IMG/VR virus record: IMGVR_UViG_3300032294_000205
Location: 1 to 37,890 of that record
Direction: 5' to 3' (one strand)
DNA length: 37,890 nucleotides
Source: a virus
Position 1 is the first letter of the stretch; the number at the start of each line of letters is the position of its first letter. The notes beneath the pieces were generated by a model. It worked only from the letters and a program-made list of their open reading frames with translations. It did no database searches and was not told where the DNA came from. The position numbers were made by a program, and so were the translations under genes. Positions 17,404-37,890 of the stretch are shown piece by piece.

Positions 17404-17581
17404 CTTCTTCTTCTTTCTTTAACATATTGTTAATAATGTCCAAGGAATCTTGTAGACCTTGGTACTGCCCGACCATGCGCTGGTAGGATTCGATATTGAC
17501 AGCGTTTCCCAACGCTAACGAGAGGCGTATTTCAGCCATCCGTACCTCAATTGCGCCGATCAGATCTCTTACGGAGAACAT
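17393..17581 (-). CDS. Small helical protein of the head operon
   Basis: A 62-aa protein predicted to be all helix: 'VRDLIGAIEVRMAEIRLSLALGNAVNIESYQRMVGQYQGLQDSLDII', with an acidic tail. Short helical proteins with a 'YQRMVGQYQGL' core occur next to portal genes in many phages; no role is known. It starts two bases after the preceding stop and overlaps the co-chaperonin gene by 11 bases, so it is embedded in the operon. Confidence 0.7.
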   Translation of the reverse strand: MFSVRDLIGAIEVRMAEIRLSLALGNAVNIESYQRMVGQYQGLQDSLDIINNMLKKEEEDER

Positions 17582-27497: not shown

Positions 27498-28063
27498 TCA
27501 GCGATCCGAATCAGTTCGAGACGTTTGACGGCCACGTCCATGAGATCCCTTACCGACACATCAATGACAGTCGGGTCGATCTTCTCTTCGGGGGCTTTGT
27601 AGTCACCATAGCGCTTGGGATTGAACTTGGCTAACAGCTTGAGGCGCGTCTCGATCTGGAGCTTACGGTGGCCAAGCATGTCCTCCTCAGTCACGGTCAT
27701 GCTGTCCTCACCCTCCTCAGCACCAGAGCTGTAGACCTTCTTGGTTCCTATGTGGAGGTTGTCGGCAATCCACAAGCACTCCTCGGCCATCTTATCGTAG
27801 CCAATGTCGCGTGCGCGGGCGATGGCTGTGGATAACTGCTCATTCCTCCACATCCAATCGTAGACCGTCCTCCATGCAGGCATACCTTCTTGTCTGCATA
27901 TCTCTCTGAGCGGCATACCTTCGCTTAACTGCTCACAGATCTTGAGTGCTATCTCTTCCGAGTACTTGGAAGGGCGCCCTCTGTTTGTCACTTCTTTTGT
28001 TTGCGGCTCACCTGTCACGTCGGCGACAGTGTCGCTGGGAAGACTCTTTGGTTTCTTTGCCAT
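27494..28063 (-). CDS. terS: Terminase small subunit
   Basis: A 189-aa DNA-recognition subunit. An N-terminal helix-turn-helix, 'GRPSKYSEEIALKICEQLSEGMPLREICRQEGMPAWRTVYDWM', is typical of this family. The central region 'ARARDIGYDKMAEECLWIADN' and 'RKLQIETRLKLLAKFNPKRYGD' should form the oligomerisation ring. The C-terminus 'IDVSVRDLMDVAVKRLELIRIAE' likely contacts TerL. AAAAGGAG precedes the ATG. It is the first gene of the late block, and a candidate promoter lies in the 56-base gap upstream. Confidence 0.92.
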   Translation of the reverse strand: MAKKPKSLPSDTVADVTGEPQTKEVTNRGRPSKYSEEIALKICEQLSEGMPLREICRQEGMPAWRTVYDWMWRNEQLSTAIARARDIGYDKMAEECLWIADNLHIGTKKVYSSGAEEGEDSMTVTEEDMLGHRKLQIETRLKLLAKFNPKRYGDYKAPEEKIDPTVIDVSVRDLMDVAVKRLELIRIAE

Positions 28064-28079
28064 TGCTGGAACTCCTTTT

Positions 28080-28116
28080 AACGTGAAGTTTAACGCACGT
28101 TTGGTTTTGTTTGCAA
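28080..28116 (-). promoter_or_regulatory. Candidate promoter for the packaging/head block
   Basis: On the minus strand TTGCAA (28116-28111) is 17 bases from TTAAAC, or 18 from TAAACT. A relaxed version of the TTAA inverted repeat (TTAACGTGAAGTTTAA on the plus strand, 28078-28093, 16 bases instead of 15) overlaps the -10 position. It is the only gap of any size before terS. Weak match; placement is inferred. Confidence 0.35.
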
Positions 28117-28119
28117 TGG

Positions 28120-28332
28120 TTAGTCTTTCAATCCCCTCATGATTCTTCTGTCCATGTCTTTGATGGTGAGCTTGAACTCTTTGTTTTGGCTTTCTAGTTT
28201 GGCGATTTTGTTGTTTGCGTGTTTCAGCTTTGACTCTAGCTCCTGTACCTGCGTCTGTAGCTCTGTGATGGCTTTGTTCGCTAGCTCAGGGTTCTCGCTG
28301 ATCCAGTCTGCTTCCCATATCTGCTCTGTCAT
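28120..28332 (-). CDS. Small coiled-coil protein before terS
   Basis: A 70-aa protein. The start 'MTEQIWEADWISENPELANKAITELQ' runs into a heptad coiled coil ('TQVQELESKLKHANNKIAKLESQNKEF') and a basic end. It overlaps its upstream neighbour by ATGA. No family is recognised. It may be a small regulatory or assembly helper. Confidence 0.7.
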   Translation of the reverse strand: MTEQIWEADWISENPELANKAITELQTQVQELESKLKHANNKIAKLESQNKEFKLTIKDMDRRIMRGLKD

Positions 28333-28562
28333 TGCTTCATACCCCTTACGAATGCCGCGAAGGATGCCGCCGTGTCCCCGAAGTTGGTCATCTTGTCGAA
28401 CTCGAGCGCTACCTCTTCCAGCACCTTATTGCGTTGTGATGGGGACACAAAAAGATCGTAGTGGTATGGCTGTCCCAGCTCACGCAGGATTTGCTTGCCA
28501 AGGTTACTGTGCTTTTCAACATCGTTGAAGGCTTCGTCCTCTTCTTGTGTCCAGTCGGTCAT
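28329..28562 (-). CDS. Unknown 77-aa protein
   Basis: An acidic protein: 'MTDWTQEEDEAFNDVEKHSNLGKQILRELGQPYHYDLFVSPSQRNKVLEEVALEFDKMTNFGD'. The 'W-EEDEAF-' start and 'EFDKM' pattern resemble small phage proteins of unknown role. ATGA overlaps link it on both sides, so its expression is tied to the whole operon. Its RBS is supplied by the end of the upstream gene (AAGGAGAAG). Confidence 0.7.
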   Translation of the reverse strand: MTDWTQEEDEAFNDVEKHSNLGKQILRELGQPYHYDLFVSPSQRNKVLEEVALEFDKMTNFGDTAASFAAFVRGMKQ

Positions 28563-28581
28563 GTGTTCTTCTCCTTGAGTT
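28559..28581 (-). repeat. 23-bp direct repeat, copy 1 (gene-junction RBS)
   Basis: Identical to 29349-29371. It encodes the terminal LKEKNT of one gene, the AAGGAGAA ribosome binding site and the ATGA start of the next. A third junction at 29588 is related but shorter. Confidence 0.9.
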
Positions 28582-29227
28582 GATAGTCTTTAAAAACAGT
28601 TCCTTTGCTTGCATCACCTTTCCAACATTCACTCACCCAACCGCGCTTTCCTGATTTGTAAGTGCGCCAATGTCCACGCACTTGATGGCGGCGTGGCGTT
28701 GCGTGTGTACCACCTTGCGGGTCATTCTTTTGTTTTGGCGGCTCTATCACTACGGTGTGCCAATCAAATGTCAAGGCTGGTTTTCCTTTTGACTGGCGCT
28801 TTTGGTTGATGAATGTGCGTTGGGGTGTAGGTTTGTAGCCCTCAGACTGCATGGCCAACTTGGTCACCACAGCAAGCACCATGCGATGCACTGGCTTGAT
28901 GTCCTCTAGGGTGATTTCTTCACCTTTGCGGTAAACCTTAAAGCCATCTGGCGTTACGATGTATGCGTATGGCGCAAAGTATTTGCCACCATGCCACATT
29001 GAACACCCTCCAACGGCAACAGAACCATCACCCTTTGTAAGCCACAGGGCAAAATCTTTTCCGCCTGTGTCAAGTCCAACAATGCCAGTTCTTTTTGATG
29101 GCAAGTTCATTAAGTAATCAGCAGGAACTTTCATTGCGGGAGTTGTATTCATCTGACCAACATCAAACCACAGTGCTGTTTCTGGCTCTGGCGCGAACTT
29201 AACGGCTTTACAAACTAATGGAGTCAT
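28559..29227 (-). CDS. Conserved phage protein with RGHWR C-terminal motif
   Basis: A 222-aa protein. The N-terminal half is beta-rich ('FALWLTKGDGSVAVGGCSMWHGGKYFAPYAYIV'). The C-terminal third has 'FDWHTVVIEPPK', 'THATPRRHQVRGHWRTYKSGKRGWVSECWKGD' and 'GTVFKDYQL', a motif set recognisable in many phages and never assigned a function. H/C-rich spacing could bind metal. It ends 'LKEKNT', encoded by a 23-base sequence also present at the end of another gene here. Confidence 0.72.
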   Translation of the reverse strand: MTPLVCKAVKFAPEPETALWFDVGQMNTTPAMKVPADYLMNLPSKRTGIVGLDTGGKDFALWLTKGDGSVAVGGCSMWHGGKYFAPYAYIVTPDGFKVYRKGEEITLEDIKPVHRMVLAVVTKLAMQSEGYKPTPQRTFINQKRQSKGKPALTFDWHTVVIEPPKQKNDPQGGTHATPRRHQVRGHWRTYKSGKRGWVSECWKGDASKGTVFKDYQLKEKNT

Positions 29228-29352
29228 TGTGGTTTCTCCTCGTCTGCAAAATCCATTTCTTGCGGATGCAATATATCGTCATGCACAATGACCCCGTGTT
29301 CGTTTGCCAACAAAAACCTGCCGCACACTACGCAGTAATAGCCATCACTCAT
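29224..29352 (-). CDS. 42-aa putative zinc-knuckle protein
   Basis: ATG 29352 overlaps the previous stop (ATGA) and has the AAGGAGAAG RBS of the repeated junction. The stop again overlaps the next start (ATGA). The product begins 'MSDGYYCVVCGRFLLANEHG' and has a C7-x2-C10 pair and several histidines (H19, H24, H29), which would suit a small metal-binding protein. The acidic end is 'DFADEEKPQ'. No family is recognised. Exact packing on both sides makes it a likely gene. Confidence 0.68.
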   Translation of the reverse strand: MSDGYYCVVCGRFLLANEHGVIVHDDILHPQEMDFADEEKPQ

Positions 29353-29371
29353 GTGTTCTTCTCCTTGAGTT
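29349..29371 (-). repeat. 23-bp direct repeat, copy 2 (gene-junction RBS)
   Basis: Identical to 28559-28581; it again provides the LKEKNT terminus, the AAGGAGAA RBS and the ATGA overlap. The flanking sequences on both sides are unrelated. Confidence 0.9.
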
Positions 29372-29591
29372 TGGCTTCAATGGCTCTGGCAAAATGAGTG
29401 TCCGTGTGCTTATGAGAAGCCGCACACTCAGCCGAAATCAAAACGATCTCATCATCAGTTAGCCCCACCCATGTGCGCTGTTGTTGTAAAGCCTCCATCA
29501 TTTGTGGCGTAATGCCGCACATCCAACCGTTGTCAGAAGGCCAAAAGCGCAAGACGTAACCACCAATCAAAAGTTCTTTAAATGCAGTCAT
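29349..29591 (-). CDS. Small 'LTDDEI' family protein A
   Basis: An 80-aa protein. ATG 29591 is chosen for its ATGA overlap and GGAG upstream. The C-terminal half 'WVGLTDDEIVLISAECAASHKHTDTHFARAIEAKLKEKNT' is a common phage small-protein pattern (L-T-D-E-E-I ... F-A-R-A-I-E-A-L). It is paralogous to the next gene to the right: same LTD-E-I block and same ending. Unknown function. The N-terminus ('ELLIGGYVLRFWPSDNGW') differs, so the pair has diverged. Confidence 0.7.
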   Translation of the reverse strand: MTAFKELLIGGYVLRFWPSDNGWMCGITPQMMEALQQQRTWVGLTDDEIVLISAECAASHKHTDTHFARAIEAKLKEKNT

Positions 29592-29755
29592 GTGTTTTTC
29601 TCCAGCAAGGCGGCTTCTATCTTCTTCGCCCACTCGAGCACCATGATCATGTTCCAGTTGGAGCTCTCAGCAGTTACGCCTAAAGCTTTCTGAATCTCCT
29701 CGTCCGTTAACCTCTTCCAAGGGCGAACGTAGTCTTGAATATCGTCGTCATCCAT
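29588..29755 (-). CDS. Small 'LTDEEI' family protein B
   Basis: A 55-aa protein starting 'MDDDDIQDYVRPWKRLTDEEIQKALG' and ending 'EWAKKIEAALLEKNT'. It is a paralogue of the neighbouring 80-aa protein. ATG 29755 has AAAGGAG upstream inside the preceding gene, which it overlaps by eight bases. The stop overlaps the next ATG. Short and easily missed; RBS and homology to its neighbour support it. Function unknown. Confidence 0.7.
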   Translation of the reverse strand: MDDDDIQDYVRPWKRLTDEEIQKALGVTAESSNWNMIMVLEWAKKIEAALLEKNT

Positions 29756-29993
29756 TGCTTACTCCTTTTGGTCTTGGGCAGTCAGTTGGGGGGATAACAG
29801 CACACCAGACAGCTTTGTACTGCCCTCTTGGCGCCACTTCCCATCGATCTATGTATACGTCTGGCATGTTCTTTAAAACCTTCCTGACGTTGGTCTTTGG
29901 TCTGTTAAGCAAATCCGATAGTTCTTCTAAGGTCATGCCATCAGGTATTCCGCGGAGCGCAACTCGTACGCTCTTGATCACAGCCATGCTCAT
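29748..29993 (-). CDS. Small helix-turn-helix protein
   Basis: An 81-aa protein. 'GMTLEELSDLLNRPKTNVRKVLKNMPDVYIDRWEV' looks like a winged-helix/HTH (helix 'LEELSDLLN', turn, recognition helix 'KTNVRKVLKNM', wing 'YIDRWEVAPRGQYKAVW'). It could bind DNA as a small regulator. The start at 29993 is fixed by an ATGA overlap. No close family is recognised. Confidence 0.68.
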   Translation of the reverse strand: MSMAVIKSVRVALRGIPDGMTLEELSDLLNRPKTNVRKVLKNMPDVYIDRWEVAPRGQYKAVWCAVIPPTDCPRPKGVSNG

Positions 29994-30169
29994 GGAGCCC
30001 CTTTATCGGGCTTTTGAGCCGTTTTCTGGTCGAGTTGAGGGTCAAGGTGCTTGATGAGCTGATCGAGGCTTATAGGCCCGATTTTTTCCAAGCGTTGTAT
30101 TTCAGTCAAAACGCAGTTCACACCTGCGTCGAATCCTTTGATGTAGTCACTCATGATTGTTTCGCTCAT
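29990..30169 (-). CDS. 59-aa unknown protein
   Basis: Reads 'MSETIMSDYIKGFDAGVNCV' then 'LTEIQRLEKIGPISLDQLIKHL' and ends 'TAQKPDKGAP'. It is linked by ATGA overlaps on both sides. 'DYIKGFDAGVNCVLTEI' is a typical start of small phage proteins. The last codons share a 19-base identical sequence with the SSB-like gene on the other strand (36245-36263). No function known. Confidence 0.66.
   Translation of the reverse strand: MSETIMSDYIKGFDAGVNCVLTEIQRLEKIGPISLDQLIKHLDPQLDQKTAQKPDKGAP
30001..30019 (-). repeat. 19-bp repeat, copy 1 (inverted relative to 36245)
   Basis: On the minus strand it reads GCTCAAAAGCCCGATAAAG and encodes AQKPDK near the C-terminus of the 59-aa protein. The identical sequence lies on the plus strand at 36245-36263 in the same reading frame. 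Confidence 0.85.
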
Positions 30170-30345
30170 TTGCCAAGGACGGTTTGTAGGTTTTCAAGCA
30201 GTTGCTCAGCCTCTGCACGGGTAAGAGGTACGCCCATACTGGCACGGCGGCCTTGCAGGGACAGCCATACGCCGTCGTCATACTGGTCAACGCTGAGGCG
30301 AACCTCCGCCTCTGTGTTGAATGATGTTTCGATTTCGGTAATCAT
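30166..30345 (-). CDS. 59-aa unknown protein
   Basis: ATG 30345 lies three bases after the preceding stop. The product has 'AEVRLSVDQYDDGVWLSLQGRRASMGVPLTRAEAEQLLENLQTVLGK': a short beta-hairpin followed by an acidic helix. The 'LTRAEAEQLLENL' helix is common in small phage proteins. The stop overlaps the next ATG (ATGA). Its operon position and coding-like composition support it. Function unknown. Confidence 0.66.
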   Translation of the reverse strand: MITEIETSFNTEAEVRLSVDQYDDGVWLSLQGRRASMGVPLTRAEAEQLLENLQTVLGK

Positions 30346-30348
30346 GAT

Positions 30349-30633
30349 TTAGCCGTTCCAATATTCGTTGAATGTCATGGGTTGCACAAAAGAGTTCCAT
30401 GCGTCAAGGTTGGGGAAGACGGCGTAGATGTCTATCCAGTTGGTTGATTGACCAATCTCCAACACGCGACCATCGGACAGCTTGAAGCATTTGCTTCTGT
30501 TGTCCCAAACACGATTTCCAAGGACTGGCTCAGCACCAGTCATGTCAGGGCGAGAGACTGGGTACTCTGGCTTTACCACGTTGGGGTTCTTGGCCTTCCA
30601 GTTGGCCAAGTATGACTCGTATGCGTTGCTCAT
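30349..30633 (-). CDS. Unknown 94-aa protein, first gene behind promoter B
   Basis: Product 'MSNAYESYLANWKAKNPNVVKPEYP...', with 'WDNRSKCFKLSDGRVLEIGQSTNWIDIYAVFPNLDAW' and a tryptophan-rich end. No domain is recognised. It is preceded by a complete promoter-hairpin unit and a weak Shine-Dalgarno (GAAAGAAAA), so translation may depend on the leader structure. It heads the small-gene cluster running leftward. Confidence 0.68.
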   Translation of the reverse strand: MSNAYESYLANWKAKNPNVVKPEYPVSRPDMTGAEPVLGNRVWDNRSKCFKLSDGRVLEIGQSTNWIDIYAVFPNLDAWNSFVQPMTFNEYWNG

Positions 30634-30651
30634 AATTTTCTTTCAAGTAAC

Positions 30652-30664
30652 CGCCTTATTGGCG
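30652..30664 (-). promoter_or_regulatory. 5' hairpin B, predicted at the very start of the mRNA
   Basis: On the minus strand CGCC-AATAA-GGCG: 4-bp stem, 5-base loop. Seven bases separate it from the -10, so it should be at or within one base of the 5' end of the RNA. It matches hairpin C in loop and position but has different, compensating stem bases. Confidence 0.65.
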
Positions 30665-30700
30665 TGGATGCATCTTAACATGAAATTAAAGCGGAATAGG
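30665..30700 (-). promoter_or_regulatory. Promoter B (extended -10)
   Basis: Minus strand: TGTTAAGAT at 30680-30672, an extended -10 (TG-T-TAAGAT) preceded by TTTAATTTCA. The -35 is poor. Predicted start is near 30665. The same block, including GATGCATCC downstream, is found at 31360-31390. It drives the 30349-30633 gene. Confidence 0.6.
30675..30689. promoter_or_regulatory. Candidate operator B
   Basis: TTAACATGAAATTAA: TTAA half-sites separated by seven bases, overlapping the -10 of promoter B. It is one of four such sites in the window. Confidence 0.5.
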
Positions 30701-30721
30701 AGTAGGGATATACCCTACCCC
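30699..30721 (-). terminator. Hairpin upstream of promoter B
   Basis: A 6-bp core stem (GTAGGG/CCCTAC, 5-base loop) extended to nine pairs with one wobble on the minus strand. It lies after the stop at 30729 and ahead of promoter B. No clear U-tract on the minus strand; on the plus strand TTTTTT follows. It probably insulates the promoter from upstream transcription. Confidence 0.45.
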
Positions 30722-30728
30722 TACTTTT

Positions 30729-30998
30729 TTATCCAATCAACAGAGCCACGTCTTTGACGTCTTCCATATTGGCAAGGCGCCCGTGGTTGCTGATGCTGTA
30801 CTCGATCTGCTCAATGGTAGGTGTCATCAGCAAAGAGTAGTCAACGCCTTGAATGCACTGGTTAGTGCCTTCGTACCAAGTCAGGGTAACCATGAAACCT
30901 TCAACGCTCTCAACGGTACGCACTTGGGCTTCTGGGCTGTTGCTGGTGACCACGAGTTGACCAGCGTAGATGTTTTGCAGTTTGATTTTCTTGCTCAT
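30729..30998 (-). CDS. Unknown 89-aa protein
   Basis: A protein with 'IKLQNIYAGQLVVTSNSPEAQVRTVESVEGFMVTLTWYEGTNQCIQGVDYSLLMTPTIEQIEYSI': an SH3-like series of beta strands followed by a short helix. Good RBS (AAGGAGATC before ATG). It is transcribed with the 104-aa gene upstream, separated by ten bases. No family is recognised. Confidence 0.7.
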   Translation of the reverse strand: MSKKIKLQNIYAGQLVVTSNSPEAQVRTVESVEGFMVTLTWYEGTNQCIQGVDYSLLMTPTIEQIEYSISNHGRLANMEDVKDVALLIG

Positions 30999-31008
30999 GT
31001 TGATCTCC

Positions 31009-31323
31009 TTACTTAGCTGGTGTTACGCGGATGTCAGCACGGCTTGCCTTGCGGAAGGTAGCCAAGACTTCGTCGCCGATACCGTAAGAGACGCAAAGCT
31101 TTTTGTAGTCAACAGTGCCAGAGACTTGAACCAACTGGACAGTCACGCTGTGCAACTCGCCTTTGTGTTCGCCTTCGCCATACTTGTTGGCAATTGATTC
31201 TTTGAGAGCTTTGACTTGGTCAGCCAATGCTTTGGCTTGTTGGTCGAGCACGTAAAGTGCGTCAATGTCAGAAGTGATTGTGGAGATCAGAGCTTCTGTC
31301 TGGATCTGTGTTGCTGTTGTCAT
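31009..31323 (-). CDS. Conserved phage protein near recombination genes
   Basis: A 104-aa protein. The N-terminal half is helical ('QTEALISTITSDIDALYVLDQQAKALADQVKALKESIANKYGEG'). The C-terminal half has 'GELHSVTVQLVQVSGTVDYKKLCVSYGI' and 'FRKASRADIRVTP', the signature of a common phage family of unknown function that tends to lie with recombination genes. ATG 31323 is chosen because AAGGA lies just upstream. It is the first gene behind promoter C. Confidence 0.75.
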   Translation of the reverse strand: MTTATQIQTEALISTITSDIDALYVLDQQAKALADQVKALKESIANKYGEGEHKGELHSVTVQLVQVSGTVDYKKLCVSYGIGDEVLATFRKASRADIRVTPAK

Positions 31324-31346
31324 GATGACTTCCTTTTTCAAGTAAC

Positions 31347-31359
31347 CTGCTTATTGCAG
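31347..31359 (-). promoter_or_regulatory. 5' hairpin C, predicted at the very start of the mRNA
   Basis: Minus strand CTGC-AATAA-GCAG: 4-bp stem with the same AATAA loop as hairpin B and the same distance from the -10. Three of the four stem pairs are kept while two pairs differ in base identity, which argues for selection on pairing. Confidence 0.65.
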
Positions 31360-31418
31360 TGGATGCATCTTAACATCAAGTTAAAACGGTTTGGAAGTCT
31401 TTTTAAAATATTTTTATT
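31360..31418 (-). promoter_or_regulatory. Promoter C with AT-rich upstream element
   Basis: Minus strand TGTTAAGAT at 31375-31367, preceded by GTTTTAACTTGA. An AT-only tract at about 31400-31418 lies where an UP element would be. Predicted start near 31360. It shares at least 30 bases of layout with promoter B, including GATGCATCCAC. It drives the 104-aa gene and those after it. Confidence 0.62.
31370..31384. promoter_or_regulatory. Candidate operator C
   Basis: TTAACATCAAGTTAA, the most symmetrical copy of the inverted repeat (TTAAC/GTTAA, 5-base centre), overlapping the -10 of promoter C. Confidence 0.55.
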
Positions 31419-31428
31419 AGGACAAACC

Positions 31429-31701
31429 CTAACGTCGCATCAACAGCTCCATCACCCTTTGGATCGTCACGTTCAAGGCGTCGATCTCCTCCATCTTGGC
31501 TATAGCCCACGCCCTACGCTCCCCGTGCCAGCCCATCTTGCTCCCTTGATGGCAGGATTTGCACAGGGCGATCACGGTGTACTGCCTATGCTGTTTGACG
31601 TGGTGTGCGTCGCTGGGGCCCTCTTGGTCGCACACAGAGCAGGGGAGCTCCTTCACCAGCCCGACGTAGGCTTTTTCTTTTGCGCTTAGGTTGTTGTTCA
31701 C
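31429..31701 (-). CDS. HNH-type nuclease, possibly RecA-dependent (Ref-like)
   Basis: A 90-aa protein starting at GTG 31701 (GTGA overlap). Metal-binding pattern 'LPCSVCDQEGPSDAHHVKQHRQYTVIALCKSCHQGSK', with C21/C24, H33/H34 and C47/C50/H51, is a beta-beta-alpha-metal HNH core like those of phage Ref-type recombination nucleases. The small size suggests a minimal enzyme. Location near RusA-like and SSB-like genes supports a role in recombination. Substrate not known. Confidence 0.68.
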   Translation of the reverse strand: MNNNLSAKEKAYVGLVKELPCSVCDQEGPSDAHHVKQHRQYTVIALCKSCHQGSKMGWHGERRAWAIAKMEEIDALNVTIQRVMELLMRR

Positions 31702-32051
31702 AGGGTAGCCTTCTCAACGTGGCGATTAGAAGCCTCCATAGAGCGCCATACGGCGATTCTTTCCTGACAGGCTATGAGGAGCCACCGAAGGCGTTCGCGC
31801 TCCTGTACGGCCTGTCTAAGGGCTTCTAGGTGTGCTTTGTAGCGTGGGGAGGCGTAGGCTTCGCGTTCTTGCATGGCGGCAGTCTTGTATTCGCCGTTAC
31901 CGTAGGCTTCAGCGTTCTTCATTTCCTCAGCCTTAATCGTCTTACGTAGCTCCTCCATGAACACCTTGTTAGCCTCAGCCTCGGCGTACTTGGCTGAGTG
32001 GGCAATCATGAAATCTATTGCGTCATTCGGATCAATCATCTTCTCGCTCAT
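31698..32051 (-). CDS. Conserved phage protein of unknown function
   Basis: A 117-aa helical protein: 'AKYAEAEANKVFMEELRKTIKAEEMK', 'TAAMQEREAYASPRYKAHLEALRQAVQERERLRWLLIACQERIAVWRSMEASNR'. The closing 'LRWLL-ACQ-RI-VWRS-EASNR' is a signature shared by many phages of Proteobacteria, often next to resolvase or recombination genes. No enzymatic motif. It overlaps the RusA-like gene by ATGA. Confidence 0.75.
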   Translation of the reverse strand: MSEKMIDPNDAIDFMIAHSAKYAEAEANKVFMEELRKTIKAEEMKNAEAYGNGEYKTAAMQEREAYASPRYKAHLEALRQAVQERERLRWLLIACQERIAVWRSMEASNRHVEKATL

Positions 32052-32407
32052 GTCAGCTCCTCAATGTCTACGATAAGTTTGCCGGGCTTCTTTCCCTCCA
32101 CCCTGTAAATCAGGATCGGCTGGAAGAGCTGGTCATTCAAAAACAGCGCGTCTGCCAACCCATCGAGGGCGCCCTTAGCGGCGGCTAAGCAGTTGTCTGC
32201 GTCTCGCTTTCGTTTGTCAGGCATCTCGAAGGTGATCGTCAGCTTAATGTTCCCGCCTTGGTGTTTCCAGCCATTGATCTGGTGCTTAGCAAGCCACGTA
32301 CTGCTGTCGCGATAGTCCGAGCGGAGTTTGTACAGCTTGCCCCAATGCGTACCCTTGGCACGGTTAGGGAACAGCTCCGCAGGGGGAAAGTCCAGCTCAA
32401 TCCGCAC
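32048..32407 (-). CDS. RusA-like Holliday junction resolvase, GTG start
   Basis: A 119-aa protein, the usual RusA length. GTG 32407 is chosen because AAGGA lies six bases before it; an upstream ATG would overlap the neighbour by about 85 bases. Features: 'LDFPPAELFPNRAKGTHWGK' at the N-terminus and 'KRKRDADNCLAAAKGALDGLADALFLND', with D69, D71 and D92 as metal ligands (E. coli RusA D70, D72, D91). It would cut four-way junctions, clearing replication or recombination intermediates before packaging. Confidence 0.88.
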   Translation of the reverse strand: MRIELDFPPAELFPNRAKGTHWGKLYKLRSDYRDSSTWLAKHQINGWKHQGGNIKLTITFEMPDKRKRDADNCLAAAKGALDGLADALFLNDQLFQPILIYRVEGKKPGKLIVDIEELT

Positions 32408-32645
32408 GGTGCATCCTTGTTCGGATAGCGTGTGCCAGCTCGTCAAAGCCTGCCTGTAGTGCAATCTGTGCGCAAGCTTCACGCTCGATGCCGATGGCTT
32501 GCTTCGTGGTTTGTATCGCTACAGCCATGATTTCAGCCTTGGCTTGTGCCATGCCCTCTTCAAATTCTTTTGCTGTGAACAATTGCTGTCCTGTGCCCTG
32601 TGCAAAGAACTTACGCTGGAAGTCACTGAGTTCTACTTTTGCCAT
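32397..32645 (-). CDS. Small protein with EREACA helix
   Basis: An 82-aa helical protein: 'FQRKFFAQGTGQQLFTAKEFEEGMAQAKAEIMAVAIQTTKQAIGIEREACAQIALQAGFDELAHAIRTR'. 'EREACA ... A-AIR-R' is a common signature of short phage proteins; the same signature occurs in the gene at 33132-33365. RBS AGGAGC lies inside the preceding gene. Function unknown. Confidence 0.7.
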   Translation of the reverse strand: MAKVELSDFQRKFFAQGTGQQLFTAKEFEEGMAQAKAEIMAVAIQTTKQAIGIEREACAQIALQAGFDELAHAIRTRMHRAD

Positions 32646-32877
32646 TTTCTCGCTCCTGTTTCATACGGTTTACTAGGTCTAGCATGGCTTCGGTTCCACG
32701 CCTCTTCTCGATGTCACTCTTTACTTTTGCCCACCACAATTGCGCGCTCCCTGAGCCTAGCTCGATAGCCTTCTTCGAGTAGCGGCTGATCCACTCTCTC
32801 GCTTCGCACTGCTTCATGTGTTCCAAGGTCTCCTGTGAGATAGAGACATTCGATGGCGCAAGCCTCGGTGTAGGCAT
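32623..32877 (-). CDS. Small phage protein overlapping its neighbour in another frame
   Basis: An 84-aa protein from ATG 32877 (several in-frame ATGs are possible; 32817 would also work). 'MKQCEAREWISRYSKKAIELGSGSAQLWWAKVKSDIEKRRGTEAMLDLVNRMKQE' has the 'CEAR-W ... V---I-KRRG--A---L---M' pattern of small proteins common in phages of Betaproteobacteria. It overlaps the 72-aa gene by about 160 bases in a different frame, so either its start is further in or both are expressed. Confidence 0.6.
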   Translation of the reverse strand: MPTPRLAPSNVSISQETLEHMKQCEAREWISRYSKKAIELGSGSAQLWWAKVKSDIEKRRGTEAMLDLVNRMKQERENGKSRTQ

Positions 32878-32932
32878 GACCATACCCTTCGCGGATTTGG
32901 TCAAGGATTTTTTGGGCATCATCTTTTGTCAT
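32714..32932 (-). CDS. Small phage protein overlapping its neighbour in another frame
   Basis: A 72-aa protein from ATG 32932, which overlaps the preceding stop (ATGA) and has AAGGA upstream. 'MTKDDAQKILDQIREGYGHAYTEACAIECLYLTGDLG' looks like a normal small phage protein ('...ALxxTGDL'). The C-terminal half is read in the same DNA as the 84-aa gene and may be non-functional tail. Start evidence is better than for its partner. Confidence 0.58.
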   Translation of the reverse strand: MTKDDAQKILDQIREGYGHAYTEACAIECLYLTGDLGTHEAVRSERVDQPLLEEGYRARLRERAIVVGKSKE

Positions 32933-33135
32933 CCTTGTTCCTTGACTTTGGCTACCCTCACGCGGATGTTGCCCTCGCTCATGTGATGCATGAGAAGGTG
33001 AACAAACGTTTGGCTCATGTCCTTGGTTTCGATCTCGATGTAGGCTTCTTTGCACACCACTAAGCCATCGCTGATGAGCGTAGGGTTCTCATGCGTGATG
33101 GTCTTTCCTTGAACGCTGAATGTTGGGATGGTCAT
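32929..33135 (-). CDS. Unknown 68-aa protein
   Basis: Begins 'MTIPTFSVQGKTITHENPTL' and continues with 'GLVVCKEAYIEIETKDMSQTFVHLLMHHMSEGNIRVRVAKVKEQ', which alternates beta strands and one helix. ATG 33135 is fixed by an ATGA overlap and a GGGGAAAAG leader. No family is recognised. Histidines cluster at 'HLLMHHM'. Confidence 0.68.
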   Translation of the reverse strand: MTIPTFSVQGKTITHENPTLISDGLVVCKEAYIEIETKDMSQTFVHLLMHHMSEGNIRVRVAKVKEQG

Positions 33136-33365
33136 GCTTTTCCCCTTACTCGGATAATGTTGGCGCAATCAGCGGGTGTAGGCCATTTTTCGTCGGGCAC
33201 AAGAAGTTTTTCGCACTGCTCCTCAAGCGAATCACAAACCTTGGCACACGCTTCACGCTCATGCTGAGCCACAAGGTTGGCAAAACGTACTAGACCATCC
33301 TCATCAAACTTCAGACCATGGATGGTGTGTTCTATCGCCAAGCGAATGATGTCTTCGTGTTTCAT
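33132..33365 (-). CDS. Small protein with EREACA helix
   Basis: A 77-aa protein: 'MKHEDIIRLAIEHTIHGLKFDEDGLVRFANLVAQHEREACAKVC' followed by 'PTPADCANIIRVRGK'. 'EREACAKVC ... AxxIRxRG' is a widespread small-phage-protein signature without function. It is a distant relative of the 82-aa protein at 32397-32645. ATGA overlaps on both sides. Confidence 0.7.
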   Translation of the reverse strand: MKHEDIIRLAIEHTIHGLKFDEDGLVRFANLVAQHEREACAKVCDSLEEQCEKLLVPDEKWPTPADCANIIRVRGKA

Positions 33366-33784
33366 GATTTCCTCTTTGCTAAGCCTGCACGGATAGCCAG
33401 CTCATTGCGCAGGCGGTACTCGTACTTTGTTTTTCGGATCTTCTCGTGGTCAGTGGGTTGGAGCTCTGGCTCGTTGTCGAACAGGGCGGCAAACTCTTGC
33501 CACTTGGGTGGGTAGCCATTGGTCGCTGATCCCCAAGAGATCATGTCGATCTGCATGACTTCATTGATCGCAAGACGAATCTTTTCGCAGTCACGCAGGG
33601 CTTGAGTCACTCGTGGCCACATGTCTGACGTGGCTTGATGGTGGTAGGCACAGACCCAGTTGCTACCAGTAGAGATCCCACCAGCCATAGGGCAACCGTT
33701 GGCAAAGCAGTTGTGGTTGACAGGCTGGCTTTCAATCTCTGTTGTTTTTTCAGCGTAACGCTGTTTTGCTTGTGTGTAACTCAT
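33362..33784 (-). CDS. Conserved zinc-finger-like phage protein
   Basis: A 140-aa protein. The N-terminal 'HNCFANGCPMAGGISTGSNWVCAYHHQA' has C-x4-C ... C-x2-H, a likely zinc site, and the whole 'CPMAGGISTG--WVCAYH' core recurs in phages of Proteobacteria. The remainder is helical ('WPRVTQALRDCEKIRLAINEV', 'YEYRLRNELAIRAGLAKRK'). It follows the replication gene by ATGA overlap, hinting at a replication role. Function unknown. Confidence 0.74.
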   Translation of the reverse strand: MSYTQAKQRYAEKTTEIESQPVNHNCFANGCPMAGGISTGSNWVCAYHHQATSDMWPRVTQALRDCEKIRLAINEVMQIDMISWGSATNGYPPKWQEFAALFDNEPELQPTDHEKIRKTKYEYRLRNELAIRAGLAKRKS

Positions 33785-34521
33785 TTTTGCTCCTTGTGGT
33801 ATGTGCCTTCGACGATTCTCGGAAACTTGCTTGCGTTGAACAGGAAGTCCATGTCAGCCTTCCAGTCCTTTGATTTGCCTGTCAGGAACTTGGATGACTT
33901 GACCATCTCAAAGTACCAGCGGAAAAAATCCAAACCACCTTGTCGATCAAGTTTGTCAGCAGTGACAACCTCTCTCCATCGAGCACTGATAGCCCGCTTT
34001 CTGGATTCGTTGACAACAACCACCTGAGGTAGCTCTGGCAAGATTGTGTTGAACATCTCCACAATTTCCTGAATCGGTGCAGATGGCACTGACTTCGGCT
34101 TGCCGAGGTCAGGAGAAGCTTTAGCTTCTATTTGTGTATCGGGTATTGGGTTATGGGTATTGGGAGCATTGCTTTCGGATTGCGTTGGCAATGCGTTCGC
34201 ATTAGAAGCCTTATTCCATCGGGCTTTGGCGGAAGCCGAGGCCTTCTCTTTCTTGACTCCAACGGCCTCAATCTCCTTGATCACACGCTCTGAAATCCAT
34301 CCGCTTTCTGTGCGGACGAAGTACTCTTGCAATACGAGCGTAATGCTATCGCTATGCGAACGCATACGGATCTGACGTGCAATATCCTCTACCTCAAGCG
34401 GCAAAGGTTTCTCGTGAAGGTAGCACCAGTCAAGAAGACGGCGGTATGCCAAGTCTTCTGTGTCTGACAGATGCGAAGTGTGACTCTGATAGTCACCAAT
34501 GTTGAATTGGTAATAGTACAT
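33781..34521 (-). CDS. DUF1376-type replication protein
   Basis: A 246-aa protein. N-terminal 'YYYQFNIGDYQSHTSHLSDTEDLAYRRLLDWCYLHEKPLPLEVEDIARQI' is the DUF1376 domain, found at the front of phage replication initiators. A Lys/Ala/Ser-rich and Pro/Asn-rich linker follows (about 95-145). The C-terminus ('RKRAISARWREVV', 'FFRWYFEMVKSSKFLTGKSKDWKADMDFLFNASKFPRIVEG') resembles the replisome-organiser type that recruits host helicase. ATG 34521 is preferred over TTG 34533. A likely origin-binding protein, although no iterons were noticed. Confidence 0.8.
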   Translation of the reverse strand: MYYYQFNIGDYQSHTSHLSDTEDLAYRRLLDWCYLHEKPLPLEVEDIARQIRMRSHSDSITLVLQEYFVRTESGWISERVIKEIEAVGVKKEKASASAKARWNKASNANALPTQSESNAPNTHNPIPDTQIEAKASPDLGKPKSVPSAPIQEIVEMFNTILPELPQVVVVNESRKRAISARWREVVTADKLDRQGGLDFFRWYFEMVKSSKFLTGKSKDWKADMDFLFNASKFPRIVEGTYHKEQK

Positions 34522-34581
34522 TTCCAGCCCCAAAAATACACCCCTAAAGAAACTGCGGCAGGCGGGGGTGGATCGCTTTTC

Positions 34582-34604
34582 GGTTCAGGGAGCTACCCCA
34601 AACC
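34582..34604 (-). promoter_or_regulatory. Leader hairpin ahead of replication gene
   Basis: On the minus strand a 9-pair stem (GGTTTGGGG with TCCCTGAACC, two G-U pairs) and 5-base loop lie in the 103-base gap between the YdaS-like gene and the replication gene. No U-tract follows. It may be an attenuator or mRNA stabiliser. The pairing is weaker on the plus strand, so the RNA form on the minus strand is favoured. Confidence 0.4.
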
Positions 34605-34624
34605 TAGCCGTGTTTCAAATCATG

Positions 34625-34828
34625 TTACACGAAAAACAGATCTGGACGCAAGTCTTTTCTTGTGACCAGCCCTTGTGTTGCTTTTTCGATCTTGACGGCC
34701 AGTGCGGCAGACGCAGTTCTACGCTCGTGGATGAGCAGTGACATCCATGTCAGGCTGATGCCTAAATACTCAGCCATCTCACCACGTGCGCCCAACGGCT
34801 CCGTCTCAAAATACTCTCGCAGTTTCAT
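34625..34828 (-). CDS. Cro/YdaS-like DNA-binding regulator
   Basis: A 67-aa protein. 'KLREYFETEPLGARGEMAEYLGISLTWMSLLIHERRTASAALAVKIEKATQGLVTRKDLRPDLFF' contains a helix-turn-helix ('GEMAEYLGISLTWMSLLIHER') and the closing 'R-D-LRPDLF' typical of YdaS/Cro-like regulators. GAGGA precedes the ATG. It is the first leftward gene of the divergent control region. It is the obvious candidate to bind the TTAA-N7-TTAA sites, including one in front of itself; this is inferred. Confidence 0.84.
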   Translation of the reverse strand: MKLREYFETEPLGARGEMAEYLGISLTWMSLLIHERRTASAALAVKIEKATQGLVTRKDLRPDLFFV

Positions 34829-34843
34829 CGTGTCCTCAATTGG

Positions 34844-34938
34844 TTGTTGATGGATGAGTGCGTTCAGGGCTTATTGATTCCTCGCATCTCGACTTCATGA
34901 TCCCGTTACATCGCGTCATGCCCGAAGTCCACCAACAA
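34844..34938 (-). promoter_or_regulatory. Candidate structured 5' leader (three-way junction RNA)
   Basis: On the minus strand, an 11-bp closing helix pairs 34938-34928 with 34854-34844 (one G-U). Inside, one arm pairs CTT...CATGA with TCATG...AAG. The other pairs GAG-A-TGCG (34890-34883) with CGCACTC (34862-34856), with one bulged A. The arms are separated by two bases and nearly abut the closing helix, giving a compact three-way junction. The predicted transcript start (about 34937) coincides with the 5' strand. Pairing was done by eye. Confidence 0.5.
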
Positions 34939-34970
34939 ATCAGAGTATACATTAACTTTGAATTAAAAGA
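34937..34970 (-). promoter_or_regulatory. Leftward promoter of the control region
   Basis: Minus strand: TATACT at 34949-34944 (one mismatch to TATAAT); the -35 region 17-18 bases upstream is weak (TTTCTT-like). An inverted repeat overlaps the spacer. Predicted start at about 34937. It would drive the YdaS-like regulator and the leftward early genes. Confidence 0.55.
34952..34966. promoter_or_regulatory. Candidate operator E
   Basis: TTAACTTTGAATTAA, the TTAA-N7-TTAA inverted repeat, lies within the spacer of the leftward promoter. The exact 15-base length is the same as in sites B, C and D. Confidence 0.5.
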
Positions 34971-34996
34971 AACCCTAGAATTTAGTCAACTTTGTA

Positions 34997-35031
34997 TTGT
35001 GGGTTTTTAATATCGTGTTAAGATTCGTGCA
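34997..35031 (+). promoter_or_regulatory. Rightward promoter D (extended -10)
   Basis: TTGTGG (34997-35002), 16 bases, TAAGAT (35019-35024), with TG at 35016-35017 making TG-T-TAAGAT as in promoters B and C. Predicted start about 35031. It drives the rightward operon with the SSB-like and exonuclease genes. Confidence 0.62.
35007..35021. promoter_or_regulatory. Candidate operator D
   Basis: TTAATATCGTGTTAA: TTAA half-sites seven bases apart, overlapping the -10 of promoter D in the same register as in B and C. Confidence 0.5.
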
Positions 35032-35044
35032 CGCCGATACGGCG
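35032..35044 (+). promoter_or_regulatory. 5' hairpin D
   Basis: CGCCG-ATA-CGGCG: a 5-bp stem with a 3-base loop, starting seven bases after the -10, exactly as hairpins B and C do. The outer four pairs equal those of hairpin B; the loop differs. Confidence 0.6.
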
Positions 35045-35059
35045 GTTATGGAGAATCAA

Positions 35060-35278
35060 ATGGAAAAACACCTTCCCTTCACGACCAAGTCTGGTCTTCG
35101 CATTGGCTGTATGTACAGCCCTCCCCCACAGAACCACATGAGCCAAGATGCTGAACGCATTCAGATGGCTTTGCTTGGCATTGAGCCTGAGTTCTCAGAG
35201 CGCCGAGTTTTTGGTTTTGTTGCCTACATCATCTTCTTGATGGTGTTGGGCACAATTCTTTTTACATTGGAGCTGTGA
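35060..35278 (+). CDS. Small tail-anchored membrane protein
   Basis: A 72-aa protein. ATG 35060 has GGAG seven bases before it; an in-frame ATG at 35048 would lie too close to the 5' hairpin and lacks an RBS. A soluble N-terminus ('MEKHLPFTTKSGLRIGCMYSPPPQNH') is followed by one C-terminal membrane segment ('VFGFVAYIIFLMVLGTILFTL'). Its function may be membrane-related, such as superinfection exclusion or a replication-membrane link; neither is supported. First gene of the rightward operon. Confidence 0.68.
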   Translation: MEKHLPFTTKSGLRIGCMYSPPPQNHMSQDAERIQMALLGIEPEFSERRVFGFVAYIIFLMVLGTILFTLEL

Positions 35279-35487
35279 TGAACTTACAAGACGTAATCTG
35301 GCTCGACACCAGCAAAGGTCGCATCGGTGTGATCATGGTGCTTGATTGGCACACAGAGACGCTCCACTACTTTTTAGGTTTAGCTAGTGGCATGAACGAG
35401 AGCATTGACATCAACCACATTTACAACGGAGGAGCAAAGCTTCCTGACTACGTAGGTATGGGTTTCTTCTTTGGAGATTGGGAATGA
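35278..35487 (+). CDS. Unknown 69-aa protein
   Basis: Starts ATG 35278 in a TGATG overlap with the previous gene, with GGAG upstream. 'MNLQDVIWLDTSKGRIGVIMVLDWHTETLHYFLGLASGMNESIDINHIYNGGAKLPDYVGMGFFFGDW': compact and beta-rich. No family is recognised. The stop overlaps the next ATG. Confidence 0.66.
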   Translation: MNLQDVIWLDTSKGRIGVIMVLDWHTETLHYFLGLASGMNESIDINHIYNGGAKLPDYVGMGFFFGDWE

Positions 35488-35657
35488 TCACCATGTCAAC
35501 GCACGGAGAATACGAGCAGTGGAAAAACGACCCTGTTGCACAACAGGAATACAGTCAATATTTACTTGAGGAAGCCAAAAAAACAGAACCAAACACCATT
35601 GAATTTATTAACCAATTTACTCGAAACTTTAACGAAATCTTTAAGGAAAAATCATGA
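35484..35657 (+). CDS. 57-aa acidic helical protein
   Basis: ATG 35484 overlaps the preceding stop (ATGA); a second in-frame ATG at 35493 is possible. Reads 'MITMSTHGEYEQWKNDPVAQ' then 'QEYSQYLLEEAKKTEPNTIEFINQFTRNFNEIFKEKS'. The TAAGGA RBS for the next gene lies in its last codons, and its stop overlaps that gene's ATG. Helical, charged. Unknown function. Confidence 0.66.
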   Translation: MITMSTHGEYEQWKNDPVAQQEYSQYLLEEAKKTEPNTIEFINQFTRNFNEIFKEKS

Positions 35658-36310
35658 GCTTTATCGTAGAAAACACATCCTCTAGCAGTGAATTCACACC
35701 TGTACCCGCAGGCCTTCACTTGGCGCGTTGCTACCGCATCGTTGACCTAGGAACCCAAGCAACAGAGTACATGGGCGAAACAAAGCACCAGCGCAAGATC
35801 ATGCTTGGTTGGGAGCTCCATGGAAAAGACGACGAAGGCAATGAGCTGGTGACCAACAACGGTAACCCCTTGGCCATCTTCAAGAACTACACGCTGAGCT
35901 GGAATGACAAGGCCAACCTGCGCATTGATCTACAGGGCTGGAGGAACAAGCCCTTCTCAGAAGAAGAGATGAGACGCTTTGACATCTCCTCAGTCCTAGG
36001 GGCGTGGTGTATGTTGAACGTGGTGCAGAGACCGGGCAAAAACGGCAAGATGTTCTCCAACGTTGGAAGCATTGCGCCTGTCCCGTCTGTTGTTAAGCAA
36101 GCAGGTCTACCACCTGCGGTGAACCCTAACCAGCTCTTCCGTTTGGCAGAACCTGATGTCGAGTTATTCGAGACGTTTGGTAAAGGCCTCAAGGAGAAGA
36201 TTCAGTCCTCACCTGAGTGGCAGGCCTTCCAGAACAGAAAAGGCGCTCAAAAGCCCGATAAAGCCCCTTCTAGCGGCTTTGATGACATGGACGACGACTT
36301 GCCCTTCTGA
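35654..36310 (+). CDS. SSB-like phage replication/recombination protein
   Basis: A 218-aa protein. The core, 'PAGLHLARCYRIVDLGTQATEYMGETKHQRKIMLGWELHGKDDEGNELV', 'IFKNYTLSWNDKANLRIDLQGWR' and 'FDISSVLGAWCMLNVVQ', is a beta-rich phage family. The C-terminus is a disordered linker ending 'DDMDDDLPF', almost the same as the E. coli SSB acidic tip (DDDIPF) that recruits partner proteins. It probably binds single-stranded DNA and works with the exonuclease downstream. TAAGGA precedes the ATG. Confidence 0.77.
   Translation: MSFIVENTSSSSEFTPVPAGLHLARCYRIVDLGTQATEYMGETKHQRKIMLGWELHGKDDEGNELVTNNGNPLAIFKNYTLSWNDKANLRIDLQGWRNKPFSEEEMRRFDISSVLGAWCMLNVVQRPGKNGKMFSNVGSIAPVPSVVKQAGLPPAVNPNQLFRLAEPDVELFETFGKGLKEKIQSSPEWQAFQNRKGAQKPDKAPSSGFDDMDDDLPF
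36245..36263 (+). repeat. 19-bp repeat, copy 2 (inverted relative to 30001)
   Basis: Same 19 bases as 30001-30019 on the opposite strand; encodes AQKPDK in the disordered linker just before the acidic tip of the SSB-like protein. Confidence 0.85.
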
Positions 36311-36312
36311 TC

Positions 36313-36669
36313 ATGAAGCACCCTACAGACAACTCAACGTTTGACATGTTCGGTTTTTACGAAAGCAAGGGTCATGAGATGGCTAGGCTTTCGTCAGACC
36401 GAGCTGATAGGGAGCTAGGCGACTGGTCAAAGAGGGCATACAACCTTTTGATGCAGTTCGCTCGGCTACATCACAACCCATTCTTGGTGGAAGAGGCAAG
36501 GGCTTACGCTGAGCTGTATGGGTTAGAGGCTCCTCCAGATGGAAGGGCGTGGGGGCACATCGTGCAGTCTGCTAGGCGTGCCCAACAAATTGTCTCTTGT
36601 GGCTATGGCATTGCCAAGTCATCTAATGGATCACCAAAAGTGCTTTGGAAATTAAAGGAAACTGCATGA
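36313..36669 (+). CDS. Conserved phage protein, winged-helix-like
   Basis: A 118-aa protein. 'WSKRAYNLLMQFARLHHNPFLVEEARAYAELYGLEAPPDGRAWGHIVQSARRAQQIVSCGYGIAKSSNGSPKVLWKL' follows a helical pattern ending in a winged-helix-like strand ('GSPKVLW'). The 'APPDGRAWG' and 'S-HG-P--LW' elements recur in phages. It may bind DNA in the recombination module. No clear RBS, so it is probably coupled to the gene two bases before it. It overlaps the exonuclease by ATGA. Confidence 0.72.
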   Translation: MKHPTDNSTFDMFGFYESKGHEMARLSSDRADRELGDWSKRAYNLLMQFARLHHNPFLVEEARAYAELYGLEAPPDGRAWGHIVQSARRAQQIVSCGYGIAKSSNGSPKVLWKLKETA

Positions 36670-37427
36670 CGATAACTGTACGCGCAAGTGAGAGTAGCCA
36701 CTGGTATACCAGAGAGGGTGTACCAAAGTACACTGTCGAGGCCAAGAACGGCAACCTGCGAAACACCACGTTGGCTGATGCACGCAAACTAAATCTCGTT
36801 CCCTCTGTAACGACGATCATTGGTTGTGCCGCGAAGCCGGGGCTCGAGGCGTGGAAGCTCAACCAAATGATGCTCGCCTCCATGACCCTCCCAAGGGCTC
36901 CTGACGAGCCTGAAGACCTCTACGTCCAACGAGTGATCAAAGACTCCAAGGAACACGCTCGTGCCGCCGCTCAAAGGGGTACAGAGGTTCACACAGCCTT
37001 GGAGAACTGGTTTGAAGGCGTGATGGTCGCCAATATGGTCGAGTATCAGCTCGGCGTAGGTGAAGAGGTCAAGAAGATCTTTGGTGAGCCAGAGTGGATC
37101 TCTGAGAAGTCATTCGCCAATGAGCTGGGCTTTGGTGGGAAGCTAGACCTTTGCACCTTTGATGGCGATGGGATCGTGATCGACTTTAAAACCAAGGAGT
37201 TCACAGATCCAGCCAAGGTGGATGCTTATGACGAGCACCTGATGCAACTAGCCGCCTATCGGTTGGGGCTTGATCTCCCAAAGGCGAGGTGTGCGAATGT
37301 CTTTGTCTCGGTCACGGAGCCGGGGCTCGTCGTCACCAAAGAATGGTCTCAAGAAGACCTCGAACGTGGGGAGGAGATGTTCTATCACCTCCTCAAATAC
37401 TGGCAAGCTAAAAACAAACACTCGTGA
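36666..37427 (+). CDS. PD-(D/E)XK recombination exonuclease (RecB/Cas4-like)
   Basis: A 253-aa nuclease. ATG 36666 has AAAGGAA upstream and overlaps the previous stop. Motifs in order: 'RGTEVHTALENWF' (H109), 'GFGGKLDLCTFDGDGIVIDFKTK' (D161, D173, K175) and 'HLMQLAAYRLGL' (Q194, Y198), the classic RecB/YqaJ nuclease series. It would resect DNA ends during phage recombination and replication, probably with the SSB-like protein just upstream. Confidence 0.87.
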   Translation: MTITVRASESSHWYTREGVPKYTVEAKNGNLRNTTLADARKLNLVPSVTTIIGCAAKPGLEAWKLNQMMLASMTLPRAPDEPEDLYVQRVIKDSKEHARAAAQRGTEVHTALENWFEGVMVANMVEYQLGVGEEVKKIFGEPEWISEKSFANELGFGGKLDLCTFDGDGIVIDFKTKEFTDPAKVDAYDEHLMQLAAYRLGLDLPKARCANVFVSVTEPGLVVTKEWSQEDLERGEEMFYHLLKYWQAKNKHS

Positions 37428-37434
37428 GGACAAC

Positions 37435-37782
37435 ATGGAACACATGCAACAAGTAGCTTTTAAACGTGCACTCAATGCCTTAAACGCGCTCAAGTGCCAA
37501 TTTGCCATCATCACACCTGAAGGCGCGAAGTTTGGTGAGCTGGAAGTCACAAAACCAACAGTCAAAAGACGATACAAAAAAGGTGAGCTAAAAAATTACG
37601 TTCATCAATTTTTGACGCCTGTTAAGGTTGGCGAGAATTTCACAGTTCCATGTGGCGACTACGAAATGGATGCAATCGCAACAAGCGTTTCACGTTGGTT
37701 TTATGTAAATTATGGCGCTGGATCTTTGAGCTATCAAAGCGATAAGCAAGCCCACGCTATTCACGGCTTTCGCTCTAACTAA
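37435..37782 (+). CDS. Conserved phage protein, likely DNA-associated
   Basis: A 115-aa protein. ATG 37435 has GAGGAC upstream, seven bases after the exonuclease stop. Reads 'MEHMQQVAFKRALNALNALKCQFAIITPEGAKFGELEV', then 'VHQFLTPVKVGENFTVPCGDYEMDAIATSVSRWFYVNYGAGSLSYQS'. This is a widespread small phage family with an N-terminal helix and a C-terminal HTH-like half ('IATSVSRWFYVNYG...SYQS'). It may be a regulator; no experiment is known to me. Confidence 0.72.
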   Translation: MEHMQQVAFKRALNALNALKCQFAIITPEGAKFGELEVTKPTVKRRYKKGELKNYVHQFLTPVKVGENFTVPCGDYEMDAIATSVSRWFYVNYGAGSLSYQSDKQAHAIHGFRSN

Positions 37783-37790
37783 GGAATAAC

Positions 37791-37890
37791 ATGGACGAAC
37801 TTTTACCTTTAATCTTGGTGGTCTGGCTGATTGGATCTTGGCTCACGCACGTCATTGTTTGCATTCAGACAATGTCTTGGGGCTTCCTAA
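37791..37890 (+). CDS. Membrane protein, cut by window edge
   Basis: ATG 37791 has AAGGA upstream, overlapping the previous stop codon. The 33 visible residues begin 'MDELLPLILVVWLIGSWLTH' and continue with 'VIVCIQTMSWGF': an N-terminal membrane segment, then a short hydrophilic stretch. The frame is open at the edge. Function cannot be assigned. Confidence 0.6.
   Translation, partial: MDELLPLILVVWLIGSWLTHVIVCIQTMSWGFL

Follow-up and report, generated by a model that had tools for sequence, protein, structure and literature searches.

Stem-loops that protect mRNA from its 5′ end are already known, and so are repeated phage promoter elements with inverted repeats. In ompA and papA, and in the hairpin added to bla, the stem lies at or a few bases from the 5′ end with the ribosome site open downstream, and is expected to block 5′ entry by RppH and RNase E, both of which require single-stranded 5′ ends; the added hairpin does stabilise the bla mRNA (PMC3997798). 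The ESAS elements of cluster K mycobacteriophages, whose function is unknown, place a sigma-A-like promoter with an inverted repeat before several genes of one phage (PMC3203893, PMC11373665). Here we describe, in a linear virus record of 37.9 kb with a lambda-like layout (IMG/VR record IMGVR_UViG_3300032294_000205, positions 1 to 37,890, hereafter the window), a module in which an extended -10 promoter is followed by a small hairpin at the predicted 5′ end of the mRNA. What appears new is a covarying hairpin, joined to the predicted start base, that serves a phage regulon: the ompA and papA stem-loops belong to single genes, whereas this module is coupled to a promoter and precedes many unrelated genes. 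We found no description of such a module in the literature searched, most subscription journals lying outside it.

The window holds three copies, units A, B and C (Table 1). A preliminary description of this DNA had claimed at each of them TGTTAAGAT, seven bases and a 13-base hairpin, with compensating changes between units B and A; all three units lie where it placed them, and the changes are real, falling at stem pairs 2 and 3. It understated their extent, since an upstream TTTAAY-N5-GTTAA and a downstream GGTTA are also conserved, the shared block reading TTTAAY-N5-GTTAAGAT, five variable bases, CA, the 13-base hairpin and GGTTA. A chance origin is ruled out by two results: the extended pattern TGTTAAGATNNRTSCACNNCNATANGNNGGTTA, itself taken from the units, matched three times in the window and never in 100 shuffles, even at three mismatches, and an unfiltered covariance-model search of the window gave the three units only, at 59.7, 58.0 and 46.8 bits, with the next match at 10.5. 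TGTTAAGAT by itself, with one mismatch tolerated, was not significantly enriched in the window, and an Rfam search gave no match at the three units.

Table 1. Promoter-hairpin units of the window and the genes and repeats near them
Feature	Position	Strand	Remarks
Unit A hairpin CTGC(AATAA)GCAG	31347..31359	-	5′ hairpin; covariance-model match and alignments
Unit A predicted transcript start A	31360	-	A kept in relatives
Unit A extended -10 TGTTAAGAT	31367..31375	-	seen in sequence
Unit A operator-like inverted repeat TTAAC-N5-GTTAA	31370..31384	-	
Unit B hairpin CGCC(AATAA)GGCG	30652..30664	-	5′ hairpin; covariance-model match and alignments
Unit B predicted transcript start A, C before it	30665	-	inferred from -10 spacing; A kept in relatives
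Unit B extended -10 TGTTAAGAT	30672..30680	-	seen in sequence
Unit B operator-like inverted repeat TTAAT-N5-GTTAA	30675..30689	-	overlaps the -10
Unit C operator-like inverted repeat TTAAT-N5-GTTAA	35007..35021	+	
Unit C extended -10 TGTTAAGAT	35016..35024	+	seen in sequence
Unit C predicted transcript start A	35031	+	A kept in relatives
Unit C hairpin CGCCG(ATA)CGGCG	35032..35044	+	5′ hairpin; covariance-model match and alignments
Gene A, 104 aa	31009..31323	-	downstream of unit A
Gene B, 94 aa	30349..30633	-	first after unit B, then genes toward terminase and structural genes; no known family
Gene C, 72 aa	35060..35278	+	first gene of the unit C rightward operon
O-like replication gene	33781..34533	-	
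YdaS/Cro-like helix-turn-helix regulator	34625..34828	-	PF15943, E 1.8e-12
Inverted repeat TTAATTCAAAGTTAA then TGTATACT	34952..34966	-	precedes the YdaS-like gene; no 5′ hairpin module

The module recurs in dozens of related phage contigs of a large uncultivated family, in the order operator-like inverted repeat TAAY-N5-GTTA over an extended -10, 7-8 bases ending in the predicted start A, a hairpin (stem 4-6 bp, loop 3-8), GTT(T)A, a ribosome site and a start codon. The exact unit pattern matches 54 stretches in IMG/VR, and a promoter-blind search with the gene A protein gave 80 loci, almost all of which, where an upstream region is present, carry the unit with changed stems, loops and -10. 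Searching related phages with a covariance model, as the preliminary description had proposed, we found 1-6 units in each of 35/35 whole related viral records, together with further compensating changes; 20/20 further records matched the model, three of them weakly (E 6e-4 to 5e-3). Three units are present in MW202545, the one annotated relative, an environmental siphovirus record from a spring that names no host and is given as a complete circular genome. The phage collection gave no match to a 71-base unit query, and no isolated phage having both units and a named host turned up in our searches; by covariance model the 3.8 Mb metagenome-assembled genome (MAG) has no unit, and the beta-proteobacterial MAG contig (L144) that encodes one gene A relative, at 69% identity, lacks the unit. 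Many unrelated genes carry units with different stems, so simple duplication is ruled out and the proposal of a regulon stands. Among them is the MSFIVEDxGG gene (213-220 aa; stretches L150, at about 2536 on the minus strand, L154, L232 and L268), whose leader has the unit hairpin and mostly, soon after it, a second hairpin GTCC(NNNN)GGAC.

Selection on pairing, first proposed from units B and A, is borne out by pairing-blind tests and by alignments alike. In the former, added because structure-fitted alignments lean toward structure, the arms were anchored by flanking sequence alone: 124/136 distinct promoters were fully complementary in their 4-base arms (shuffled mean 55, maximum 67), as were 47 of the 53 gene A promoters picked by protein homology (mean 33, maximum 40). 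The signal is weaker when distinct arm pairs only are counted, because some arms are mis-anchored: 9/19 were complementary in the 136-promoter set (mean 1.5, maximum 7) and 5/8 in the gene A set, a count reached by 54 of 20,000 shuffles. When MAFFT alone was used, with no structure (alignment A1), 93% of cells paired and covariation was 0.595, as against 0.147 for shuffled and at most 0.09 for slid partners; the structure-fitted alignments A2 and A3 were 98.7% and 100% paired, with double-change cells numbering 74 in A2 and 48 in A3. In one 215-aa gene, orthologs differ by the compensating swaps GGTC/GACC, GATC/GATC and GTTC/GAAC. There are at least 20 stem sequences, often two to four in one phage with loops differing too, and about 45 loop sequences, mostly of 3-8 nt; one unit has a stem mismatch (CTCC/GGCG). 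The shuffles correct for relatedness in part only, and an artefact of shared ancestry is unlikely because of the many different stems; at least 17 changes of stem label are required on the tree of gene A, many of which fall on weakly supported branches. These comparisons make an RNA hairpin structure well supported, with pairing rather than stem sequence mattering, as expected of a 5′-terminal stabilising stem-loop. That the stem arms are instead half-sites of a DNA operator for a dimeric regulator, with no RNA structure, is highly improbable: such an operator would suit an inverted repeat near a promoter, and the rarity of wobble pairs (8/750, though the finder penalised wobble), but the arms differ within one phage, for which reason we rejected it, their spacing ranges between 3 and 8 bases, too variable for a dimer bound to DNA, and the role of operator already has a fitting candidate in another conserved inverted repeat.

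The module can also be set apart from other described phage elements. ESAS is a 17-bp, sequence-conserved element that contains the promoter and is often linked to a 13-bp start-codon motif, SAS (PMC3203893, PMC11373665), whereas here stems of 4-6 bp, free in sequence, lie downstream of the -10 and are fixed to the predicted start, and the unit leaders have ordinary ribosome sites at variable distance in place of SAS. Cluster EG Microbacterium phages have 18-bp inverted repeats 14-22 bp upstream of start codons, which are recurrent too but, unlike the covarying hairpin, keep one consensus, GATCAACCNNGGTTGATC, in all three genomes, and so look more like a protein site (PMC7302621). In N4-type hairpin promoters the hairpin is upstream of the start and is read by a giant virion RNA polymerase, whereas here it is downstream of a sigma-70-like -10, and the longest open reading frame has 1156 aa. 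Lambda nut boxB and HK022 put also have small hairpins close to where early phage transcripts begin; these come after the first bases and keep a conserved loop or two-stem sequence. That constancy is not seen here: the approximately 45 loop sequences do not follow the GNRA-like pentaloop of nut, and, unlike the two-stem RNA of about 65 nt in put, the window and most relatives have a single hairpin of 13-16 nt, a second one occurring only before one gene family.

The hairpin was suggested to form the very 5′ end of each mRNA, and the position of a conserved A agrees with this prediction. In 109/127 distinct units an A immediately precedes the stem, nearly always with C or T ahead of it, and in most of the remaining units the A is paired inside the stem. 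Since the A adjoins the stem at 7-nt spacing (79 units) and at 8-nt spacing (25/25) alike, the hairpin follows the predicted start base and not the -10, which is itself conserved mainly as TAxxxT with variable inner bases, a sigma-70 pattern. Predicted leader folds range from -3.2 to -8.1 kcal/mol (z about -0.4 to -2.4), and in most of them the ribosome site and start are unpaired. A hairpin about 15-25 nt before the start codons of short leaders might be thought to tune translation, by keeping the leader open or aiding ribosome loading; this is quite unlikely, as the distance from stem to start codon varies (mostly 15-25 nt) while that from the -10 is fixed at 7-8, and the ribosome site is outside the stem.

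The same promoter also occurs without the hairpin. Two hairpin-blind promoter scans of IMG/VR found the hairpin in 44/65 distinct stretches and, among the matches listed, in 60/112, compared with 3-4% for shuffled downstream sequence; among the stretches scored as hairpin-free, a few in fact carry a hairpin that fell just short of the score cut-off, such as CGGTC(AACGA)GATCG. Many of the hairpin-free matches resemble chance matches inside genes, but some have the look of genuine promoters, being followed by a ribosome site and a start codon, and most of these precede YdaS-like regulators and the M(D/E)xLEEFHYF ('EEFHYF') family. Both flanking anchors are present in only 2/36 hairpin-free promoters, and the module therefore tends to come or go as a whole; the 'RLxTEEE' gene family has members with and without it. 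Promoters kept while the stem is lost, the case named beforehand as one that would refute the proposal, thus do occur, mostly as hairpin-free gene classes and not as decaying stems. As the same promoter precedes particular genes without it, the hairpin is dispensable for promoter recognition, which counts against its having been part of the promoter DNA. An effect of the hairpin on early transcription, exerted as it folds at the RNA exit channel and working through promoter escape, initial pausing or put/Q-like antitermination, is also unlikely. Its fixed position at the predicted transcript start would favour this, as would the inverted repeat, which sits immediately before the -10 at a place that Q-type proteins can occupy, and the place of unit B before the late region; however, other genes have promoter and operator together but no hairpin, the genes that follow the units include recombination as well as late ones, the loop and the length are variable, and there is neither a put-like two-stem RNA nor an Rfam match at the units.

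Sequence comparison establishes that the module exists and recurs, and that its hairpin covaries, is tied to the predicted start base and can be parted from the promoter. From this we infer a 5′-terminal mRNA hairpin built onto a sigma-70 extended -10 promoter, which most likely blocks 5′-dependent decay (probability roughly 0.6). RNA polymerase would start at the conserved A, 7-8 bases past the -10, and the mRNA would open with pppA and pass at once into a stem of 4-6 bp, with 0-1 unpaired 5′ base; GUU(U)A, the ribosome site and, some 15-25 bases after the stem, the start codon would follow. This folded 5′ end would bar RppH and then RNase E, lengthening the life of phage mRNA and leaving the ribosome site open, while TAAY-N5-GTTA would probably be a phage operator on the promoter, which may be read by the YdaS-like protein. 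We favour decay protection because RppH and RNase E need unpaired 5′ ends, with 0-1 predicted here; B. subtilis RppH needs at least two unpaired 5′ nucleotides (PMC4227774). Of the roles first proposed for the hairpin, a block to 5′ decay thus fits best and binding by a phage protein less well; a part in the promoter DNA is a poor fit, as are a terminator, an operator formed by the stem arms and recognition of the loop by a protein. An intrinsic terminator or attenuator was rejected, as GGTT(T)A without a T run follows the stem and the three units are absent from the terminator scan.

Several points weigh against decay protection. Sequestering the 5′ end gave no stabilisation of rpsO or T7-transcribed lacZ mRNAs (PMC3997798), so protection is not to be taken for granted; single stems of 4-5 bp are only modestly stable; some promoters of the same type have no hairpin; RppH and RNase E are assumed to be present in the host; and transcript start, half-life and effect on expression are predictions from the sequence. 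Shielding alone also leaves unexplained the conserved G after the stem (109/109 A-flanked units) and the TT(T/A) that follows, and this conserved GTT(T)A leaves room for a binding factor. The hairpin could thus be a site for an RNA-binding factor, of phage or host origin, that marks phage mRNAs or regulates them (in translation, processing or antitermination), perhaps by reading shape together with the flanking A...GUU, and the kept start A, the loops beginning AA in 86/127 units and the joint presence or absence of the whole module are in keeping with this. We consider such a site doubtful, since one record has CCAC/GACGAT, CTGC/ACTGA and CGGTC/ACTT as stems and loops, whereas boxB and coat-protein operators keep the loop; because stems and loops differ within one phage, 5′ protection fits better than a sequence-specific phage protein.

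That the shape is kept while the letters change suggests a built-in shield or tag for phage messages. More speculatively, the hairpin may be a 5′ tag of shape only, installed by the promoter, by which a phage factor or phage-altered decay machinery treats phage mRNAs apart from those of the host; if true, structure would here take the place of a cap throughout a phage regulon. This phage family seems to build the hairpin into the promoter module of recombination, late and many uncharacterised genes. With well over 100 natural promoter-hairpin variants, and hairpin-free controls in the same phages, it offers a series for relating 5′ structure to mRNA life, which bears on whether phages armour their messages against host decay. 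The module may also find use as a part in expression design, and it is a sensitive marker by which related phages can be found in metagenomes.

In the window, YdaS/Cro-like and O-like genes run leftwards toward units A and B and the terminase and structural genes, and unit C opens a rightward operon that includes an exonuclease at 36645-37427. That the three units drive separate operons, as the preliminary description had it, is likely but unproven: A and B share a strand and are separated by about 700 bp, an interval in which a terminator-like hairpin lies. This hairpin (30702-30718, flagged on the + strand by the terminator scan) and another at 31415-31432 are of the form TAGG...CCTA and lie just upstream of units B and A respectively; their position is kept in relatives with changed loops (GGGTTTGTCC, GGGAAAGTCCC, GGGTTTATCCC), and each is probably the terminator of the preceding operon. 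The gene A protein has many invariant residues, and its relatives occur in at least 131 viral stretches; no family scored above cut-off, a resemblance to YbaB/EbfC is weak, and the AlphaFold model is poor (pLDDT 65). Searches with genes B and C gave few relatives. Upstream of the YdaS-like gene, an inverted repeat of the unit type is followed by a shifted -10, TATACT (region 34944-34966, minus strand), which suggests autoregulation, and the YdaS-like protein is possibly the reader of the TAAY-N5-GTTA operator. An exact palindromic TTAAC-N5-GTTAA, which may be due to chance, is found at 17419-17433 in the structural gene region. A sub-threshold match to the Rfam int-alpA RNA RF02996 (29.9 bits; gathering threshold 35.8) lies at 34541-34614 on the minus strand, in the interval that separates the YdaS-like gene from the O-like one. 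The one nucleotide-level match of window positions 28000-37890 in the phage collection is a 46-base stretch at 29348-29393, 96% identical to phage DSL-LC05 (OR003940).

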